A stretch of DNA of 64,000 bases from Ectocarpus siliculosus (Eukaryota; Sar; Phaeophyceae; Ectocarpales; Ectocarpaceae): the NCBI GenBank assembly GCA_000310025.1, contig FN649746.1:2900306-2964305 (forward strand), in the 5' to 3' direction. Of the stretch, positions 5,190-63,604 are shown in pieces. Under the pieces are notes generated by a model that ran no database searches, had not been told where the DNA came from, and saw only the letters and a list, made by a program, of their open reading frames with translations. Position numbers and translations under genes: made by a program. The first letter of the stretch is position 1. Each line of letters opens with the position of its first letter.

Positions 5190-8100
5190 TCATGTAACGC
5201 ACGGGCAGCTGGGACGTTGTTGGCCCTGACACAGCGTGGATCTTCCTGAATCGTCCAACAACGCCTCCGCGTCCCGCAGCCCCCCCAATTTACGAACACT
5301 CCCACCAAGCTCGTGCAGCGTATCGGCCGCCTGGGCATGATTTTGCCCAAGCCTGGCCTCCTCGATCAGCAATCTCTCCGCCTCTGCTAGCCGCCCCGCC
5401 TCTCGTACGCATATGCCCAACTGATACAGCGTGTTGGCATCCTCTGACTCCAGCGTTGCCTTCCGCACGCTCAGAGAGCGTCTCAATAATGTCTCCGCCT
5501 CTTCCAACCGACCTCCCTGTCGAAGGCATACGCCCAGCTCGTACAGCGTAGAGGCTACCTTTACATCTTCTCGGCCCAGCTTGGTTTCCCTGATCGCCAG
5601 GCAACGCCTCAACAACACCTCCGCTTCCCCCAATCGTTCTGCTTCACGAACGCATATGCCAAGCTCGCGCAGCGCAAACGCGACCCCAACATCCTCAGGG
5701 CCCAGCTTGTTTTCCTTGATGGTGAGGCAGCGCCTCAAAAATTCCTCCGCTTGCTCCATCTGCCCCGACTCTCTAGCACACACACCGAGCTGTTGCAGTG
5801 TGGTGGCCACCTGCACATCCTCTGGTCCCAGCTTGGTCTCCTCGATCGCCAGGCAGCTCCTCAGCAATCCTTCCGCCTCGCCCCACCGTCCGGACTTTCG
5901 AACGCAGGCACCCAGTTCATACAACGTGCAGGCCACTTGCATATCCTCCTGCCCCAGCTTCTTTCTCCTTATTGTCAGGCAACGCCTCAGCAATCCCTCC
6001 GCCTCGTCCAGCCGACCTGCCTCTCTAGCAGACACACCGAGCTGACGAAGCGTATCAGCCACCTGGAGATGCTCCGGGCCCAGAATGGCTTCCTTGACAT
6101 CCAGAGACCGCCTTAAAAGCGTTTCCGCTAGAGCTCTATCGCCGGGTCTGAACTCCAAAGCGGTTGCTGCAACAGAGGAAAGGCTGTCCGCGTCATCTAG
6201 ATCCGCTTCCAGACCAGAACGGACTAGCGCGTTCATTCTAGCCAAGGCCAGAGGGAGCCCCTCGACCTCCTTCTCATGCCATTTCGCAGCCTCTTCGATA
6301 TTTCCCAATCGCTCTGCCCATATAGCTAGGTTCCCGTACGTATTTAACACGAACGGGTGGTCTGCCCCAAGCTCCCTTTTCTCGACTTCGAGCAGTCGGC
6401 GCCACGAAGCGGATGCTCCCTCCAAATCCTCCTGTGCTTCTTGAAACCATCCCACAGCCTCCGCAGTTGTTCTGAGCAAGGCGTCCGATTCCAACATCAT
6501 GCCCAACGCCTTTTCATATGGGCGTGTCTTGCCCCAGCCATCTCCACCCAAGCGTTCTATAGCCAGCCATAGACCCTTCAGAACGTAGCGGTCAGTGGAA
6601 CGGAGGATATCTAGCGAGGAAAGGTACCTCGTCCACCTCTTCAAAGCAGGCCGGCGCACATGCCCACGGTCCAGAAGACACTCCCTCGCAAAGTCGGTGT
6701 GGGCATCATGCATTCGGTACGTCCCTTGTGCCGAGCGGATGATCGACCATCGCTCTAAAACGTCTACTACGCCCCCTGCAGATGCTTCGTCCTCCGTGCT
6801 GGGCGACCGATCGTAAAGCAGCACCGCGGCGTCTTTCAATGAGAAAGCATGGCCATCCGGCATCACCGCGAGCGACAGGTACAACCGTTGTACACGCTCG
6901 TCGTCCGATCCAATGGCAAGATCCTCGAACCCACCCTGAAGAATGGCTTTCCGTCTTTTCGCTGGAATGTTTTCTGCGCTATCGTTGTCGGGATCATGTC
7001 CCACCTTCTCCATCTCAGTGCGAATCGTGCTGGCCGCATCCGACCAAGACGCTGGGTCATGCCTGCCGCGAACTGTACTCCATCGCCCCACGAACGCGAC
7101 GTCCATCGCCACGCGGCCGCACAACTTGATCAGGTCAACAGCATCGTCGGGCAAGCGGGATTCGCGGGGAAGTTCTGCCGCTCTCTTCAGCACCGACTCC
7201 GCATCTGCCTGGGACAGCTCGTCAACTACCACAGCCTTGCCTCGTGAACGCTTCACGACCGCCTCATCACGGGTTGACAGGAGGACCCACATGCCCGTTT
7301 CCACGAGTTTCGAGACAACGTCCTCCTCCCACACGTTGTCCGCCACTACGAGGCACTTCAATCTTCTGCCCTTGTGCCCTTCCTCGAGCCGTTGTTTGAT
7401 GTAGGTCGCACTGTCTTCAGACGCGCTGGGTACACGGCCTACGCTACCACCAATCTCTTCATGAACCATGCGGGCCAGCTGCAGCATCAAGGACGGGAGG
7501 CGCTTCTTTGCTCCCTCGTTCACCGGCAACCACACGATACCGTCGGAGAAGGCCTCTCGCACCTCCGTACTCCTAACGATCTCGGCCGCGACGGTGGTCT
7601 TGCCGGACCCGCTGTAGCCCGCTAATGCAACCACACACGCTCTGTCACTACCATTGAGCGCGTCGAGCACCGTCGCCATCGCGTGCCGACGTTCCACGTG
7701 CCAGCTCTTGCGTACCGGCGCCCCCATTGGCACCGCGGCTAGCTTGCCGAATGACCTTGGTAGACTCTCCAGCCTTTGGTCTATGCGATCCTGGAGATAC
7801 ACGAGATGCAAAGTGCGTGAGAGGTAGATACATGGAAACCCGCCTGCAATACCGCATCAAGTGTTCAAAGCGACGAAGAAATATCATTTGAACGAAAAAG
7901 TCGTAGCTCTTAATACGTAATTCTTGATGGACAGTCAAAGAACGCAACGCCCTGATGCGGCGCATGCAATGTAATGATACGATACCATGTATTATTTTAT
8001 CATCGCAGCACATATTAGCATAATGTCGATCGAGATGTGTGATGTTCAGTGTGTTTCCCGTGGGTGCCCCGTTAAAAGGAGCGAAACGTTCGGCTGAAAA

Positions 8101-39000: not shown

Positions 39001-42000
39001 TGCGACTAGGCTTTGAAACATGAACAGATCATGTTTTCTAGTCTCGACGGAGGGGGGGCGTACTCTAGTGTTTTGCATGCCTTTGCGGTTAGACCATTGA
39101 CTACGCGTCCTCGAGAGGACGGAGCCTTGTTCCCACAGGACCGATCACCGATGGCCAATCGTTCCTTCCTACTTTGCCAAAGGTGGCTCAAAAATGTCTT
39201 CCCTAGTTTGTCTATCCTAACGATATCCCTTCCCACCTTTTCAAACCACTTCCTACTCCCCAGTACAGCTACCGTCCTCTCCTCTCTATTCCATGCCTCA
39301 AACATCTCCCTGTACGTCCCTTGTATTTTTCCCAGCTCAGTCATGTACACTTCCCTCTCCTCTTCGTACCACGGACATTCCGCGACTACATGAACACGGT
39401 CTTTGCATTCGAAGCCGCAATCACATGTGAACTTGTCGTCTTCGTCGTCTACCGTCCTATGTCTTCGTCGACGTTCTCGAAGGCCTACGTCCCCGGTCCT
39501 GAATTTTACCTTAATCTTTGTCCCTGCATCGATTGGTCCATGTAGGTCATCCTTGAACCCTACTCCTTCCTTCAACATTCCGTACACTTCTAGACCCTCC
39601 TTATCCTTGGTTTCTTTCCTTATATTCTGTTCTTCTCTCTCGGCACAAGCAACAGATATCTTCTCCTTGAAACCCTGTAGACCCTCCGTTTCCAGCGTTT
39701 CATCTTCGTCGATGTCTAACCCCTTCCATACGTCCTCTACAACCTTGACCCATTCGGTGGGTTGTCTACCCCTCTTTTTGCTTGCCCACTTCGCCTCCCA
39801 TACTATTCTCGGCAACCTCTCCTCTCTCATCCCGCACATGCGACACTGCCATGTCAGCTTCCTTGCGTCTCTTCCCGACCGTAGGGATTGGATCCCCAAT
39901 TCTGCCCTGACGGCTGCATCACTTGTGCGCTTGGAGCATCCTAGGATGATTTTCGCTGCGTTCATCTGTGCCGCCTCGAGTTCTTTCTCTACCTTCTTAT
40001 TTCCTTCCCATACTTCTCCGGCGTACTCTAGCGGCGGTACGACTACGCTCTTCCAAACCGTCAATGTGATGCGTGTATCGAGGTGCCGGTTTGCGAGTAG
40101 TGGGTGCAGCTTCCCTGCTCGTGCTTTGCCCTTTTCCGCTACCTTGGACATGTGTGCATTCCACGAGCAGTCTTTTGCGATCTCTACTCCGAGGTATGTG
40201 TACTGGTCCACTACTGCAATCTCCTCGATCCCCCACTTCCATCTATGTTCTACTGGTTCCTCCCTAACCTCGTTGCACACCATGACGGCACTCTTCTTAA
40301 CCTTGGCAGACAATCTCCACTTATCAGTAAACTTCTTCGCCGCGTCAATTTGCAGTTGCAGTCCCTCAGGGGTGTCCGACATACCAACAAAGTCATCCGC
40401 AAACAGCATTCCTGACACCGAAGTTTCCGTGTCCCCTACTTTTACTCCCTTCCGGACTGCCTCTACGACTTCCAACAGATCACCTGGAACAATGTTGGGG
40501 ACAGCGTGCAACCTTGTGGGACCCCCTGCTCAATGTCGAAGAACTTAGACAGTTCTCCGTCTAGCATGACCGCGCTTTTCGTACACTCTGTCATCTTCTT
40601 CAGCACTCTCCACATTTTCTCCTTGATCCCGTACTTGAACAATTGTTTCCACAGCCCATTTCTCCGTACGGTATCGTATGCCTTTTTCACGTCCAGGAAG
40701 AAGCAGTACGTCGGCTTTCACGCCCTCTTTCTACCTTGGATGATTCTCCCTACCGTGAATGCGTGGCCTACGCACCCCCTCTTCTGTCGGAAACCTGCCT
40801 GGCCCTCACTAATGCTACGTTCCTTCTCCAATACTCCACTATCCTATCGTTCAGCAGCTTACAAACAGTTTTCCTGCTGTGTTCAACAGTGTCATACCCC
40901 TGTAGTTTCCTGGGTCAGTCTTGTCTCCTTTCTTAAACAAGTTCACAACCACTCCTTCCCTCCATCTACTTGGCGCATACTCGTTTATCCACACCCAGTT
41001 GTACAGCAGTACCATCAGCTGGATCATCCCCTTCCCCCCAAACTTCGTGAACTCGTTTACTATCCCATCCGCCCCTGCTGCTTTGTGGCACTGCAGCTTG
41101 TTCACACACGCCTCAACCTCGTCCTCAGTGAACTCATTTTCTAGTTCTACGTTCCCAACGTCTGCCTTCGATGTCTCTTCTTCTTTCTGGGCCCATGCGT
41201 CCACCTCCTTCTTAAGCACTTGGTCAAAATCTTCATTCTCCGAAGGCACTCCAAGTCTCCTGTAGTGTCCTGCTAGAACTTCCCTTTTTCCTTTCCCACT
41301 GCCGACTAGTCCACCGTTCACACCTCACAAAGTTGCTACCCATCCCCCCCTTGCGTGGTCTTTCTTACCATCCCACCAATCCCTTCCCACATCTGCTTGG
41401 CGTTCCCCTCCAGGCCTCCGTTGGCCTTCTGCACTACTTCGTCCCAAATGCACTTTTTCTTCTTTTTCACTAGTCCCTTCACCTGTTTCCTGTTGGCCCT
41501 GTACTTTTCCCAACTCTCCTCAGACCCCTCACTCAGGTGCTGCTTGAAGACTTCTCGACGTTCCCCTATTTCCTCTTTCAGCTCGTCATCCCACCACTTA
41601 ACCGATACCCCACATCGTACCACCTTCTTTCCCACTACTCTCTCTGCCGTTGTGTTCACTATGGACTCCCATCCTTCAACCACCCTGTCCCCTCCTGCTT
41701 GTACGTCTACCTGTCCGTCTTCGACGCTTCTCAGCAGTTTCCTGAAGGGTTCAACAGTACCAGTCCCTTCTGGAATTCATCCCGTGTCCCCTCGTCTCCC
41801 AAACGCTCTACTTTCCACCGGAACACTTTCCTCTGTTTCTTACTCTCCGTCTTTCTAGATCGGTCAATGTTTGCCCATATGAGGAAGTGGTCGGTCGAAC
41901 CTATATCTATCGCACTTACGTGCAGCTCTGGGATCTGTGTGCTCCCCCTATCTCCCAGGATGCAGTCGAGGATTGAGTATTCATTGCAAACTGCCCTTTG

Positions 42001-54767: not shown

Positions 54768-57700
54768 ATGGCTGCCGATCTTGCGGATGCCACTGGCGAG
54801 GCTGCCAAGATCGCCTCGAAGATAGGCTCAGCCGCGGCGGACGCTATCCTGTTCGTGGCGGACTTGGGCGAAGAGCTTCCGCTATTGCAGCCCGTGTTTC
54901 GGACCCTCCGAATCGTTCGAGAGAAGGTGGAGACTGTGAAGAGCAATCCAGAGGATTTGACAGTGCTTCACCAAAGGTGCACGTACATCACGGCATGCTT
55001 CATCGTTAAGTGCCGCCACTGCTCCTCAGATTTGGATGTAGCGCCTCTCGAGGACTGCGTCAACGTAGTGGAGAAAATCGTGGAGCGGTATAGGAAGCGA
55101 GGCAAGATATCGAGGGTCTTGAAGGCGATCGGCGACAAGGGCGACATGGTCCGGCTGAAGGAACGACTCAGAGATCTCGAAGGCGACTTGAGTCTGGCGG
55201 GCATCGCAAGCTTGGTGTGTGGATGTTGAGCGCGTATTAGCAGCTATGTGGTTTCTCAATGCTTTGTAGAGAATGGCAGCCAACCACTGCAGCTTGTGAG
55301 CCGAAGACCGACCTCCCCTCACTGCGGTGCCAACATTCCACCCCCTACAACCCAGTCTGCCTTCCCTTCCAAGTGTTTTTTTTTGTTTGAGAGCGGGCTT
55401 AAATCAACGAACGCAGGTTCTTTGGTGTTGCTTTTGCACACCTGTGAAAATCATATAGATAGCGGCTGCGGAAGAGAAATTGCTCACATAGTATCTTGCG
55501 AAGTATTTGATGGCCGATCCCAAACCATGCTCTCCTACTGCGGTTGCTTTCCAGGAACGTATGGGCAAGAAACAAGAAGGGAATCATGAGGAGCTGTTAG
55601 CTAATACGGAAACAATTCTTCGCCAGCTGCCGAAACCGCCAGCCAAGGTAGCGAATGTTCCCAAGGGCACCCCTACACACAAAAGTTGGCACGTGGAGCG
55701 TCGTAACGTGACGGAAACGGTGTTCCAGGCGCTCAATGCCGATGGAGGGCCCCATCTGGTTGGCCTAGTGGGCGACAGCGGGGCCGGCAAGACCACCGCC
55801 GCGTCCGCAATTGTCAGCAGTACTGAGGTGCGGGAGGCTTTCTCCGACGGTATCGTGTGGCTGCCGGTGAACGAGGGTGCTCTGGATAATCTCCCCTGTT
55901 TGATGCTTCAGTTAGCTCAAATGGTGTTCGAAGACATCGGAGGCAGCGTGGGGCGTCGTCCCAGCGGATCTGACGACGGCTTGGACTACGTCAAGCAGCA
56001 GGTAGAGAATGGACACGGGAGCAAAGGACTGAAGTGCCTCGTGGTGGCCGACAACGTGTGGGAATCGGACGTGGTCTCGCAGCTGCTGGAAACCGGAATG
56101 TGGGTTCTCCTGTCAACCCGCGATGAAGAGCTGGTGAAACGTGCGAAGGGCGAGGTAGTCGGAGTCGATGAACTGTCCGAGGCAGAAGCGGAGTCGGTGC
56201 TAAGAAGAGCAGCGGAGCTATCCCCTGAGGCACGCTTGCCCGACGATGCGATGGACCTGATAGAGCTGTGCGGGCGCGTGGCGATGGACCTCGCGTTCGT
56301 AGGGCGCTGGAGTACAGTTCGCGGCAGGCAAGACCGGACGGCTTGGTCGGATGCGGCTTGTAAGGTCCGTGCAGAGATGAACAAGGAGCGGGTGAATGCT
56401 GAGAGCAACGGCAGTGAGGACTCTCGTGTGAACCGAAGGAGGGCCATCCTTCAGGCCGGTTTCGAAGATCTAGCCATTGGGTCGGATGACGAGCGGGTGC
56501 AACGTTTGTACCTGTCTCTCGCCGTGTTGCCGGATGGCCATGCCTTCACCGTTAAAGATGCGGCAGTGTTGCTGTACGACCGAGAGCCAGGCACCGAAGA
56601 CAAAGCATCAGTGGGAGCCGTCGTGGAGACCCTGGAACGCTGGACTACCATTCGTTCGGTAGAAGCAACGTACCGCATGCATGACGCCCACTCCAACTTT
56701 GCGAGGGAGAGTCTTATGGACCGCGGGGACGTGCGCCGACCTGCCATAAAGAGGTTGGTCAGGTCCATCTCCTCTCTTGAAGCTCTTCGGTCGATTAACC
56801 GATACGTGCTCAAGAGTTTATGGGCGGGGGTTCAACGCGTGGGCGGAGACGGATGGGCAACAACCCGCCCGTATGAGAAGGCGCTAGAAGCGTTAGACGA
56901 GTCAAACTCCCCGCTTTTCCGACAGAGTATCGAGGCAGTGGCATGGTTTCAAGAAGCACAGGAAGACTGGACGGGGGCCAACCGGACTTGGCGTCGACTA
57001 CTCGCGGTCGAAGAGGTGCAGTTGGGAGCTGACCATCCGTACGTCTTGAACACCTACCGCTGCCTGGCAAAGTGCGCAGAGCACCAGGGCAACGTCGAAG
57101 AGGCCAAGGAGTGGCACAGGAAGGAACGCCAAGCTCTCCCGTTGGCCATGGCCAGAGTACAGTCTAAAAACGTTGGCAGCGAGGCAGCAGGGCTTGATGA
57201 TGCGGGTAGCCTAGCGTCTCTTGCTGCCACCGTGATGACGCTCCATCCCGGCGAACGGGGTGAAGCAGAAAAGCTACTGAGACGATCTTTAGAGATCAAG
57301 ATGGCCGAGCTAGGCGGCCAAGATGATGTGCAGGTGGCCGTCGCACAGCATGACCTGGGTGTATGCATTCGAGAGGCGGGGCGGTTAGACGAGGCGGAGA
57401 TATTGCTTAGGCGATGCCTAGAGGTCAGGGAGGCAAAGCTAGGCCCAGACGACCTGAAAGTGGCCGGCACACTGCATGATTTGGGTATATGCGTCCGCGA
57501 GGCGGGAAGGCCAGACGAGGCAGAGGAGTCCCTCAGGCGTTGTCTTGAGATCAAAGAAACCAGGCTCGGCCGAAAGGACGTCGAGGTAGCCCTAACACTG
57601 TATGAGCTGGGGGGATGCCTTCGAAAAGCAAGGCGGCTGGGCGAAGCGGAGCAAGTGTTAGGCCGTTGTCTGGGTATCGTGGAGGCCGAATTCGGCGGAG

Positions 57701-58245
57701 AAAGTGCCCAGGTCGCGAACACGCTGTGTGCGCTCGTACAATGCGCTCGAGAGCGAGGGGATTTCGAGGAGACGGAGAAATTGTTGAGGCGCTGTCTCGA
57801 CATTAAGGAGGCTCAGTTGGGGCTAGAGGACGTGCAGGTGGCCAGCACGCTGTACGATCTGGGCGTGTGCATTCTCGCCGCGGGACGAGTCGAAGAGGCG
57901 GAAAGGTTGCTGAAACGCTGTCTACAGGTTCGGGAAACCAAGCTTGGTCCGCAGCATGTGGAAGTAGCCAGCACACTGTATGAGCTGAGCTCATGCTTTC
58001 GAAGGGCAGGGCGACTTGGTGAGGAGGAGCAGGTCCTGAGGCGCTGCCTGGGCATCGTGGAAGACAGGCTGGGCCCAGAGAATATTGGGGTTGCCAACAC
58101 CTTGCGGTGTCTAGAGACGTGTGTTCGGGAGGCAGGGCGGCTGGAGGAGGCTGAGGGATTGTCTAGAAGAATTGTGCAGATCCAAGAAGGCGAGATCAGC
58201 CAAGAGAATGCGAAGAAAAGCTTGCCCCACGTAAGACCAAGATAA
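54768..58245 (+). CDS. NB-ARC-TPR NLR-like receptor, copy 2
   Basis: Exons 54768-55214 and 55555-58245, phase-0 intron (donor GTGTGT, acceptor TTTCCAG); about 1,045 residues. The N-terminal ~149 residues are helical (MAADLADATGEAAKIAS, EELPLLQPVFRTLRIV, VKSNPEDLTVLHQRCTYITA, RYRKRGKISRVLKAIGDKGD) and align with copy 1, resembling HeLo/MLKL-type four-helix bundles. NB-ARC: P-loop GDSGAGKTT (~222), LKCLVVADNVWESDVV, WVLLSTRDEELVKR, ELCGRVAMDLAFVGR and MHD in YRMHDAHSNFARE. Seven regular 42-residue TPRs follow (for example EAEILLRRCLEVREAKLGPD), then a partial eighth and a polar tail ending PHVRPR. All switch motifs are intact, so the gene looks functional. Exon 1 ends about 11 codons earlier than in copy 1, whose extra stretch reads EGKVDDMKKTL. 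An in-frame ATG at 55510 would be the start only if the upstream exon were not used. Confidence 0.9.
57240..58200 (+). repeat. 126-bp direct repeats encoding TPRs
   Basis: Seven to eight tandem 126-nt units in one uninterrupted exon, each with LLRRCLxIxExxLGxxxVxVAxTLxxL. The adjacent units sharing GCLGIVE/RCLGIVE and RRCLEVREAKLG hint at past exchange between repeats. Confidence 0.82.
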
Positions 58246-59768: not shown

Positions 59769-62700
59769 TCAGCAATGAGGGCACAATGGCACCGGCATCA
59801 GGCGCACCTTGTTCTTGAAAGGCTCCCCGCTCCAAGCCTCCTGGAAGTACTTGCCCTTCTCGGACTGGTACTGCTCCGGCCCGCCGGCGATACGCTCCTC
59901 GATTACCGGCTGGAAACGCCTGATCAGGCCCTGCGAAAACCGAGCCAGCAGTGCAAGATTTGTCACCACAGCAAGGCGGTGTCACTTTAGCGGCGTGCGA
60001 GGTTTACGGTCGAAAACAGGTATATTGAGCTTGAGCTAACGTTCTCTCCCTCTACACCGTTTCGCTTCCGTTTGCTTTCCGCCAAAAGCACTTGTAGCTT
60101 TGCGCCAATTGCATGTGTATCACATGTACCGCCACACGATTGCCGCCGGTTTTCACGTTACCATCTTCTGTACATCCGTTCCCGAGAAGCGCTAGGGGTT
60201 TCATGTTGCCACCGTGATTTGGACTACCGTTCCGCCGAAGTCGCTAGATACAATTACCGAAACACCCACACAGCCATATGGTATTCCGTTCCGTTGTCGA
60301 ACCGGAAAAAAAGGGTTGGTACCAAGAAGAAAACTGGGAATTTTTGAGTCTGGTCGCAACACCAGGCCTCTGTCTGGAAGAACACACAAATCAGAGCGAG
60401 CGGGACGCAAAGAAAAAAAGACGCCGCCCCAGCTGAACTTCTCCGCACCACCACTTCGTTCTATACGTCGGCGGTACACGTCGGTGTGCGGTTCGAACTT
60501 TTAACTGCTCTGTGGAACGTTGCGCGGAACGCCGAAGGCGTAAACGGAACCCGTTTACAGAACCCGCCACAACTAACGAACCACGTTTTTCGCCCCGACG
60601 CTACTTTTTGACGTCCTCTGCGGGCTAGTCCAACAGCTACTACTATATTCTCCTAAATAGGCTTCGGAAAAAGGTACTTACAACTGCGCGCCTGAGCACC
60701 TGTTCTTATGTCCTACCAGTTCTTAAGCTTCGATTGCCGTGAACTTGTCAACTCCGTGCTTCTCAAGTGGCGGCGCTATCAAATAACGCATGACCAAGCG
60801 TACCTGAACGGGCCAGGCCGCGGCGTCGCCGAGGGCGCAGATGGTGTGCCCCTCGATCGACCTGGAGATCTCTTCCAGCATGGGGATCTCGCGCGTGTCT
60901 GCCTCGCCCTTCTCCATCTTGACGAGCATCTGCTCCAACCACCCGGTGCCCTCCCTGCCTCACGAAACGGCCGACGCGGAAAAGCGATCAAGCTCTACCC
61001 GACCCCATGAGGTAAATGAACACTTAGTAAGCGATAAACCTGACACAGTAGAGGTCACTGTTTAGTGCCGGTATGTGCCCAGCAAATTGACCGCATGCCG
61101 GACACCGGCACTATTCAAAGTACAAAATAACTTGAAAATAGTGTGTTGTTGTGTTGTTGTTGTCTTCACATTAAAAACCGTTCCGTTCTCTCCGCCCAGT
61201 ACCTTCTTCTGTCCGAACTAGTTCAACACTTGACGGGGTCGATTCCCGTGGTCACAGGCAGTGTGTGCCCCCCGAAAACACCGGCACCATACCGGTAACC
61301 GGCACTAAAGAAGGACCTCTACTGCATGCAAAAACAACCCTACATGACAAAAAAAACAAAAAAGCCAACTGCCCAATCCTTCGCATCGCAAGACCAGACG
61401 AGGTGCACCCGGTCATAGGGAACCGTAGGATTTGGCCTCTGACCGCGGCAAATAGTTGCAGATTCTAAGGAAATAGTACGGGTACGTGCTAGGCAGAGGT
61501 TGGAATCGTTCTGGGTGCAAAGATGGCGACCAGATACTGTATCATCACTCAAGCGTGGTTTCTCGTTTCTTGGCCTTTCGGACACAAGGCATGGAATGAG
61601 AGGAACGGGCATTTTAGGGGGTGCATAAAAACCAAAACAAAAAAAACAAAAGATACACATATTCTGTGTGACCCTCCTTTGTGACGCCGGCTCATGCTTT
61701 GCGCCCAACGTATACTCCGAAAGGTGTGTAGACTGGCACCCGATTAGATGGGGCGAACACGTACACGGGGCCCCCGACCATGGCCTGTAGAAGCGTTTTC
61801 TGTTTTCAACCGCACGCAGACTGACGCCGTTTCACCGGATAGCGATGCCAATAATTAAAGAAACACACACCGCTGGCACTGACGTTTCATTTTCATTGGT
61901 CAGTCAGTTAGCGCGGTCGATGCTAATTTACGAAGACACACACACACAAAGATCATGGCCTTTAGAAGCTTGTTGTGTTTTCAACAGCAAAGTGAGACTG
62001 ACGTAGTTTCATTGGTCGGCCTGTTGACGCGGTCGATACAAAAAATAAACACACACACACAAACACACACACAAACACACACACACAATCACACAATCAC
62101 ACACAAACACACACATAAACACACACACAAACACACACACAAACACACACACACAAACACACACACACAAACACACAAACACACACACATACACACACAC
62201 ACACATGCTGCCCCCTAACGGGGTCCCAGTTCATGGCAGATAGAAGTGTTTTGTGTTTTCAACCGCATTAAGACTGACGTCTTTTCATTGGTCAGCCGGA
62301 TACCGCGGTCGATGCTAACAGTAATAAAAACACACCTGCAGGGGGTGCACTGGCCGCAAGACTCGTGCTTGTAGAAGTGTGCAAGGCGGCGGATGGCGGC
62401 GATCATGTCGACGCTCTTGTCCATCACGGTCACGGCGGCCGTGCCCAGACCCGATCCGGCTTTCTTGAGGTCGTCGAAGTCCATCATCACATCCGCGCAG
62501 TCGTTGATGTCGAGGACGGGGACCGAGGAGCCTCCGGGGATGACAGCCTGGTTCAATTTGGTCAAGAGGGAGAATAAAAGCGTTTGAAAACATACCGCTA
62601 CAGTACCGCTGTTATTCCGGTACGATGCTGTGAAAAAGTTAGTTGTTTTCGTCCTGTTCAATATGGCGACAGTCCCCCCCCATTTTTCGTGGTGAGACGT

Positions 62701-63604
62701 GCACTACACTTTTCAGTGAAGCCAACAACTGTTGATGTTTTTCGCTGCCCACGAAAAGACAATCTCGGGTTAGACCCTCCAATTCAAGTTAATACTTCGA
62801 AGTACAAGACAAAAGAAAACAAACGATATAGAACAACTTAAGCGTCTTAGATCGGACAGCTTCGCCGGTGGTAATGATGTCTGGGGAGCCGCAGTGGGGT
62901 GGGTGCAGAAGAACAGCATGGCACACAGACCACGGAGTTGGGCACCGTTTTCATTTTGGCATTTATGTCGCGATGAGACTGGCGTGCTTGTCGCTCGCCC
63001 AACAGACAAGCACCGACAACGCCAACTGCAACACAAACTCCCCTAGGGGTCGGAAAGGCGGCCGCTGCAGTGGCGGCTAAGCGTTTGGAGAGCATAGCTT
63101 TGCCGCGAAAGGCTGGGCAGGAACCGAACACTCCAAGACGGCAAAAGCTCGAAAACGGAACAAAGAGTCATTCCCCAAGGCAGCTGTGACAACGGCAACG
63201 AAAACCCAAGCCTACCGTGTACAGCAGTCACATCCAATTGCCAGGACCACATGGTAACGGAGGCCCAAACCTCGTTGTCCAATCGAGCGACAAGAAACAA
63301 AAAAAGTGGTTATATCTCGAACGGGTAGTCTTTCTTTGATGGAATCAAAATCTTCTAAATACCCGTCCCAACGGGGAAAAAAAAAACACTACAAGTTCCC
63401 ACAAAGTACCACAAGAAACACTGTAAGGACAGCCGCAGCAGGCAAGGGCGTTTCCCCAAATACCTGGAGGTTGTCCCAGCCCCCTCTGACGCCGCCGCAG
63501 TGCTTGTCGAGCAGTTCTCTAAGGGTGATCGACATCTCCTCCTCCACCACGATGGGGTTGTTCACGTGGCCAGAGATCGCGAAGAGCTTGGTGCCGTGGT
63601 TGTT
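59769..63604 (-). CDS. NDUFV1: NADH:ubiquinone oxidoreductase 51-kDa flavoprotein subunit (partial, C-terminal half)
   Basis: Minus-strand exons 63604-63464, 62547-62336, 60954-60804 and 59930-59769, all phase-matched; 221 codons plus stop. The N-terminal FMN/NADH half must lie beyond 64000. Sequence blocks are [93 protein letters not shown] and [28 protein letters not shown] plus the Cys in HTICALGD provide the four ligands of 4Fe-4S cluster N3, which passes electrons from FMN along the matrix arm of mitochondrial complex I. After [14 protein letters not shown] the tail ([20 protein letters not shown] to LCPHC) is longer than in animals. A donor-like GTGCGC after FKNK could mean a further unseen exon. 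Confidence 0.95.
62048..62207. repeat. CA-rich microsatellite (ACACACAA type)
   Basis: Imperfect ACACACAA/ACACAC tract of about 160 bp in the NDUFV1 intron between exons 62336 and 60954. Short CACACA tracts also flank it. Confidence 0.9.

Follow-up and report, generated by a model that had tools for sequence, protein, structure and literature searches.

What does the predicted first exon of an NB-ARC gene encode in a brown alga? The question is raised by a 64,000-nucleotide stretch of Ectocarpus siliculosus DNA (contig FN649746.1, positions 2,900,306 to 2,964,305), here called the window, in which an exon at 54768-55214 precedes an exon for an NB-ARC domain and tetratricopeptide repeats (TPR). 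Coordinates are those of the window unless another locus is named. The sequence-only reading had seen in this exon a resemblance to a HeLo/MLKL-type four-helix bundle that executes cell death. On balance, we think it probable that exon 1 encodes a divergent MLKL_N-type four-helix bundle with an extra N-terminal amphipathic helix, and that it is the effector domain of a nucleotide-binding leucine-rich repeat (NLR)-type receptor of the signal transduction ATPases with numerous domains (STAND), acting by the membrane mechanism set out below.

The genome (189 Mb, 492 contigs) holds nine copies of exon 1 by tblastn, and seven of these share the contig of the window. It also gives 150 scored EsV_1_7_cys matches among 880 candidates, in keeping with a brown alga, a group in which this family is expanded. 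The sole other copy inside the window, copy 2, is matched at 8752-8306 on the reverse strand (80 of 149 residues, or 54%, identical; E 4e-51). The patterns earlier described as shared by the two, namely DLGEELP, the VKxNxEELxxLxQRCTYITACFxVKCR block, RGKxSRVxKA and DLxLAGIA, are all present in the domain. The Pfam model MLKL_N (PF22215) matches six of the nine copies at E<=10 and is the only family common to more than one; each of 13 other listed families matches a single copy. One copy, L014, lies over the curated MLKL_N cut-off (28.6 vs 27 bits, E 1.2e-6; genome-wide E 1.1e-4) and is the only one of the nine to do so among the scores listed. The MLKL part of the proposed family thus stands, and the HeLo part does not: HeLo (PF14479) and the HeLo-like PigL_N (PF17111) have no match in the whole genome at E<=1. 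The same holds for Rx_N (PF18052), and RPW8 (PF05659) gives no match at these loci and a single sub-threshold one elsewhere in the whole-genome search (contig C12, E 0.33). The HeLo, PigL_N, RPW8 and Rx_N labels were dropped because these models give no match at the receptor loci at E<=1. PADLOC returned nothing for the three N-terminal domains tried, and no relatives were found in viral contigs searched with copy 1 or in prokaryote genome contigs searched with the related domain of a second receptor subfamily, described below.

Profile searches of the PDB (177,635 distinct sequences) also lead to MLKL. Profile A6 consists of 20 receptor-linked domains gathered with copy 1, the NB-ARC family and the second-subfamily domain, none of them via the MLKL_N model alone. 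With A6, MLKL takes ranks 1-6 (E 5.7e-4 to 2.3e-3), six entries that all represent a single protein and do not count as independent; another MLKL follows at 0.2, and the best non-MLKL match is at 0.07. The best match spans MLKL residues 47-122, mainly the C-terminal half of the MLKL domain. We take this segment to be alpha3, the basic stretch that follows it and alpha4. Profile A5, in which four kinase-type MLKL_N domains of the same genome are added to such receptor domains, reaches MLKL at E 5e-8 over residues 16-133 and is partly circular, because those four members were found with MLKL_N. With HMMER, A6 picks out the kinase-type frame of L018 at 14.3 bits; the highest score in 50 rounds of shuffling was 8.6. 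Across three groups of domains, 27 of 149 columns share a residue class, compared with a maximum of 21 and a mean of 12 in circular shifts, a comparison that the alignment biases towards the unshifted count. Homology of the exon-1 domain to MLKL_N is supported by these comparisons.

In the window, the domain stands at the head of two genes with the following parts:

54768..55214, forward strand: copy 1 exon 1, MLKL_N-like helical domain of 149 residues (open translation, Pfam, model)
55215..55554, forward strand: predicted phase-0 intron of copy 1 from exon 1 to exon 2, donor gtgtgt at 55215, acceptor ccag (from sequence only)
55555..58245, forward strand: copy 1 exon 2, NB-ARC-TPR, 896 residues, open
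55771..55797, forward strand: Walker A/P-loop of copy 1, GDSGAGKTT
56035..56061, forward strand: Walker B of copy 1, CLVVADNVW
56671..56694, forward strand: MHD motif of copy 1, YRMHDAHS
57277..58242, forward strand: TPR array of copy 1, 42-residue period, 34% self-identity
8273..8752, reverse strand: copy 2 exon 1, MLKL_N-like domain of 160 residues ending EGKVDDMKKTL, donor gtgagt after 8273
5190..7790, reverse strand: copy 2 exon 2, NB-ARC-TPR, 866 residues, open, predicted acceptor just before 7790

In copies 1 and 2, Pfam finds NB-ARC at E 2.5e-11 and 1e-15 and TPR_12 at 8.7e-55 and 2.2e-58, and both carry the P-loop and MHD motifs. The window genes therefore have what marks an NLR or STAND protein, an NB-ARC with P-loop and MHD plus a repeat sensor. 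The kinase-like domain that follows the bundle in whole MLKL is absent, and NB-ARC-TPR stands there instead. Exon 1 of copy 1 is a stop-free frame of 149 residues that starts at the first in-frame ATG past the upstream stop. Start and frame hold as first read, as does the placement of a ~150-residue domain on a first exon before NB-ARC-TPR in both copies, with donors and acceptors assigned by sequence. The extent of the exon is less regular: copy 1 ends ~11 residues short of its close paralogs (window 55200-55220), without their EGKVDDLK-like end and with another donor (gtgtgt). A match to the NB-ARC exon lies downstream of all nine copies within the fetched flanks (tblastn), all nine have a phase-0 GT donor, and candidate AG acceptors are found at the six loci where the NB-ARC frame was located. 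The acceptor list was restricted to phase 0, so intron phase is no independent test. Splicing of a separate first exon to the NB-ARC exon is predicted from these signals. All nine copies are stop-free from start codon to exon end, and the ratio of nonsynonymous to synonymous substitution rates (dN/dS) is 0.16-0.47 in all 28 pairs of eight copies, L017 excluded and dS near saturation in many pairs. The frame therefore looks like constrained coding sequence under purifying selection. The copy L017, on the 29 kb contig C180, is divergent (25-27% identity) and also has a match to the NB-ARC exon.

The domain is not confined to the window-type genes. When the loci retrieved in earlier searches were scanned with the nine-copy profile, another nine NB-ARC loci matched in their N-terminal part (E 8e-9 to 3.3e-5; reversed sequences gave a best E of 0.096 and ten shuffle rounds 0.047). 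The domain shares one open frame with the P-loop at eight of these nine loci; at L045, a stop codon intervenes, and the N-domain and NB-ARC occupy separate open frames. Aligned by hhalign, the window-type and second-subfamily sets match at 97.7% probability (E 1.3e-12). On these alignments, a homologous domain heads two NB-ARC receptor subfamilies. The 27 rows of PF00931 in the genome correspond to at least 26 NB-ARC loci (two adjacent rows are one gene, and the NB-ARC beside L017 is not among the rows). Eight of the 26 have a window-type N-terminus and nine the second type (17 of 26 either), five have another, and none was found at four. The five others, judged by eye, are L032, L033, L038, L041 and L052; their N-termini look all-helical, and some have a hydrophobic segment resembling a transmembrane span ahead of NB-ARC. 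L041 and L052 may be distantly related to the bundle (hhalign E 0.0025, probability 12%). At L046, L048, L049 and L050, no N-domain was found in the first flank or ~3 kb further upstream, and about half of the C348 stretch is N. L061 and L063 bear second-subfamily N-domains, and with the copy-1 exon as query their flanks gave no NB-ARC match and, at L061, just a weak TPR match.

MLKL_N domains also occur beside kinases in this genome. PF22215 matches ten places genome-wide, and the four over cut-off are the L014 copy, L018, L019 and L020. The kinase-type domain of L020 also matches RPW8 at E 0.046, under the RPW8 cut-off. Two of the loci read as follows:

L018 (contig C10), 1480-2880: MLKL_N domain, then a kinase frame (Pkinase, E 2.6e-36)
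L019 (contig C29), 1480-2826: MLKL_N domain, then a kinase frame, the kinase judged by motif

At both, the kinase frame follows within ~400 bases and contains VAVK, HRDLKSAN and DFG. Domain and kinase frame probably form one gene at each locus, and the kinases are predicted to be active. In this they would be unlike mammalian MLKL, whose kinase domain is not active. L026 (contig C25) is an MLKL_N-kinase copy with an in-frame stop. At L022 (contig C14, 1144-2163, reverse strand), an MLKL_N-like domain below cut-off (24.2 bits) continues in the same frame into a long Ala/Gly/Val-rich hydrophobic stretch that possibly spans a membrane.

The helix layout of copy 1 was taken from an AlphaFold2 model of the domain together with the profile comparisons:

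54771..54866, forward strand: additional amphipathic helix at the N-terminus, residues 2-33, preceding the region aligned in A5 with the MLKL_N-kinase genes (model)
54885..54935, forward strand: helix 1, residues 40-56 (model; same residue class in the three groups at positions 40, 43, 44, 47, 50 and 54)
54948..55019, forward strand: helix 2, residues 61-84, containing the RCTYITACFIVKCR block (model, column comparison)
55041..55094, forward strand: helix 3, residues 92-109 (model, column comparison)
55086..55127, forward strand: basic stretch RYRKRGKISRVLKA, residues 107-120, within the MLKL-matched part of the receptor-only profile A6
55110..55196, forward strand: helix 4, residues 115-143 (model, receptor-only profile)

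The structural matches of the model include MLKL, the CC-R domain of NRG1.1 and the coiled-coil (CC) domain of Rx, and a four-helix bundle fold is only moderately supported. Over residues 2-33, the amphipathic moment of the whole helix is 0.35, a value reached in none of 1000 shuffles; that of the best 11-residue window was reached in 51 of 1000.

From this order of bundle (effector), NB-ARC switch with P-loop and MHD, and TPR sensor, a mechanism can be proposed. The TPR array would sense a ligand or modified self, and the NB-ARC would exchange nucleotide and then oligomerise. Oligomerisation would cluster the N-terminal bundles; the amphipathic helix, helix 1 or both would insert into the membrane, leading to ion flux and regulated cell death. 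The sequence kinship with MLKL suggests that these seaweed receptors could set off cell death on their own, although it falls short of proof. The principal rival, which we regard as distinctly less probable though a serious contender, accepts a true MLKL_N-type bundle and makes it an adaptor, which would recruit or template a separate executor, for example the MLKL_N-kinases of the same genome, without entering the membrane itself. Candidate partners are at hand at L018 and L019, where MLKL_N lies beside kinase frames with HRD and DFG, and separate HeLo effectors serve some fungal NLRs (PMC12881547, in excerpt). Charge also fits an adaptor: the net charge is 0 in copy 1 and lies between -9 and +4 across the nine copies, and charge by itself thus gives no sign of a strongly cationic surface for membrane binding. 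The amphipathic helix at the extreme N-terminus fits a membrane role instead, and "all-in-one" N-terminal bundles are described in some fungal and plant NLRs (PMC12881547, in excerpt).

The membrane-executor reading has further results weighing against it. Both window copies score below the MLKL_N cut-off (17.7 and 14.4 vs 27 bits), and the second subfamily does not match that model, either in the four members scanned or among the genome-wide PF22215 matches. The nine-copy profile A1 finds MLKL in the PDB at E 1.5, under 15 other matches, and a search with the single L014 sequence finds no MLKL there. To this comes the partial circularity of A5. Receptor and kinase-type domains align only modestly by hhalign (A1, E 2.2e-4, probability 45%; A6, 8.8e-4, 23%; second subfamily alone, 0.028, 1.8%), and A6 scores L019 (8.2 bits), L020 (7.7) and L022 (3.4) under the shuffle best of 8.6. 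The bundle fold, as first proposed, is modelled with moderate confidence at best: a first AlphaFold2 model from nine sequences was too poor for use (predicted local distance difference test score, pLDDT, 45.6), the second is moderate (pLDDT 63.7, predicted template modelling score 0.41), Foldseek gives no E-value <0.33, and designed bundles, IncA and c-Cbl reach Z scores equal to or above that of MLKL. The amphipathic moment is clear in the first helix only, the other four being not significant against shuffles. The sub-threshold window copies, the fit of generic bundles, the L014 and A1 searches and the three of four kinase-type frames not above shuffles would all suit an unrelated all-helical or coiled-coil domain that is MLKL-like in composition and helix pattern only. 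We consider this improbable, since MLKL_N is the sole family common to several copies, the receptor-only profile puts MLKL first in the whole PDB set, and the shared columns exceed every circular shift, within the bias of that count. Walker B usually reads DD. That copy 1 reads DN there, lacks the exon end of its close paralogs and uses another donor might point to an executor domain that has decayed or is retained for regulation, as a lid on NB-ARC that can no longer kill, and the low dN/dS in every pair and the nine stop-free frames make this very unlikely.

The membrane-executor reading matters because a recognisable executor domain would give these receptors a concrete, testable output. 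It also allows a wider and more tentative proposal, to which we give rather less than even weight, that brown algae possess a necroptosis-like module in full, made up of many NLRs that carry their own MLKL-type executor bundle, on a separate exon in one subfamily, and of MLKL_N-kinases whose kinase domains appear active. If so, MLKL-type killing would supply the effector arm for the immune receptors proposed in brown algae, and NLR-coupled killing of this type would either predate the split of animals, fungi, plants and brown algae or have arisen more than once. A survey of 67 unicellular eukaryotes reports that the regulators of mammalian necroptosis have no homologs there (PMC7539657, in excerpt), so MLKL_N in a multicellular stramenopile would widen the reach of the death module.

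Elsewhere in the window, 62218-62703 on the reverse strand is an exon of a complex I NuoF-type 51 kDa subunit (NADH_4Fe-4S, E 1.6e-7), perhaps with flanking exons from ~59800 to 63600, spotted by eye. A sub-threshold reverse-transcriptase match (E 0.00029) at 39009-40529, reverse strand, is perhaps a retroelement remnant.

Among known systems, NB-ARC-TPR architecture like that of the window genes has reportedly been treated by Zambounis 2012 and Teng 2023, the works most likely to describe these genes. Both are outside the set of open-licence PMC titles and abstract openings in which, among the matches listed, no NB-ARC protein of brown algae is described with an MLKL or HeLo domain. The closest likeness is to the N-terminal executioner domain of MLKL (PF22215; PDB 4btf, 6zvo, 2msv, 6ux8), which is the best PDB match of the receptor-only profile, the sole multi-copy Pfam family and a structural match. 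The algal bundle differs in preceding NB-ARC-TPR and not a kinase-like domain, and in its extra ~30-residue helix before helix 1. Plant CC and CC-RPW8 NLRs (ZAR1, NRG1, Rx) likewise place a helical bundle before NB-ARC, and the NRG1.1 and Rx domains are structural matches; A5 matches 6j5t, which we take to be ZAR1, at E 0.25, under many designed proteins. They differ in that the algal loci give no Rx_N or RPW8 match and carry TPR in place of leucine-rich repeats. Fungal NLRs include basidiomycete MLKL-like (BaMLKL) and Goodbye/HeLo-like N-terminal domains, and BaMLKL shares with the algal domain both an MLKL-related bundle at the NLR N-terminus and an extra N-terminal helix (PMC9815663, in excerpt). 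These fungal NLRs differ from the algal receptors in lineage, and the PigL_N and HeLo models are unmatched in the algal genome (E<=1). MLKL-related N-terminal bundles are thus known on receptors of fungi (PMC9815663; PMC12881547), and plants and streptophyte algae have bundles of the CC/RPW8 type (PMC10952240), all three sources in excerpt. The brown-algal receptors would be a further case in a new lineage.
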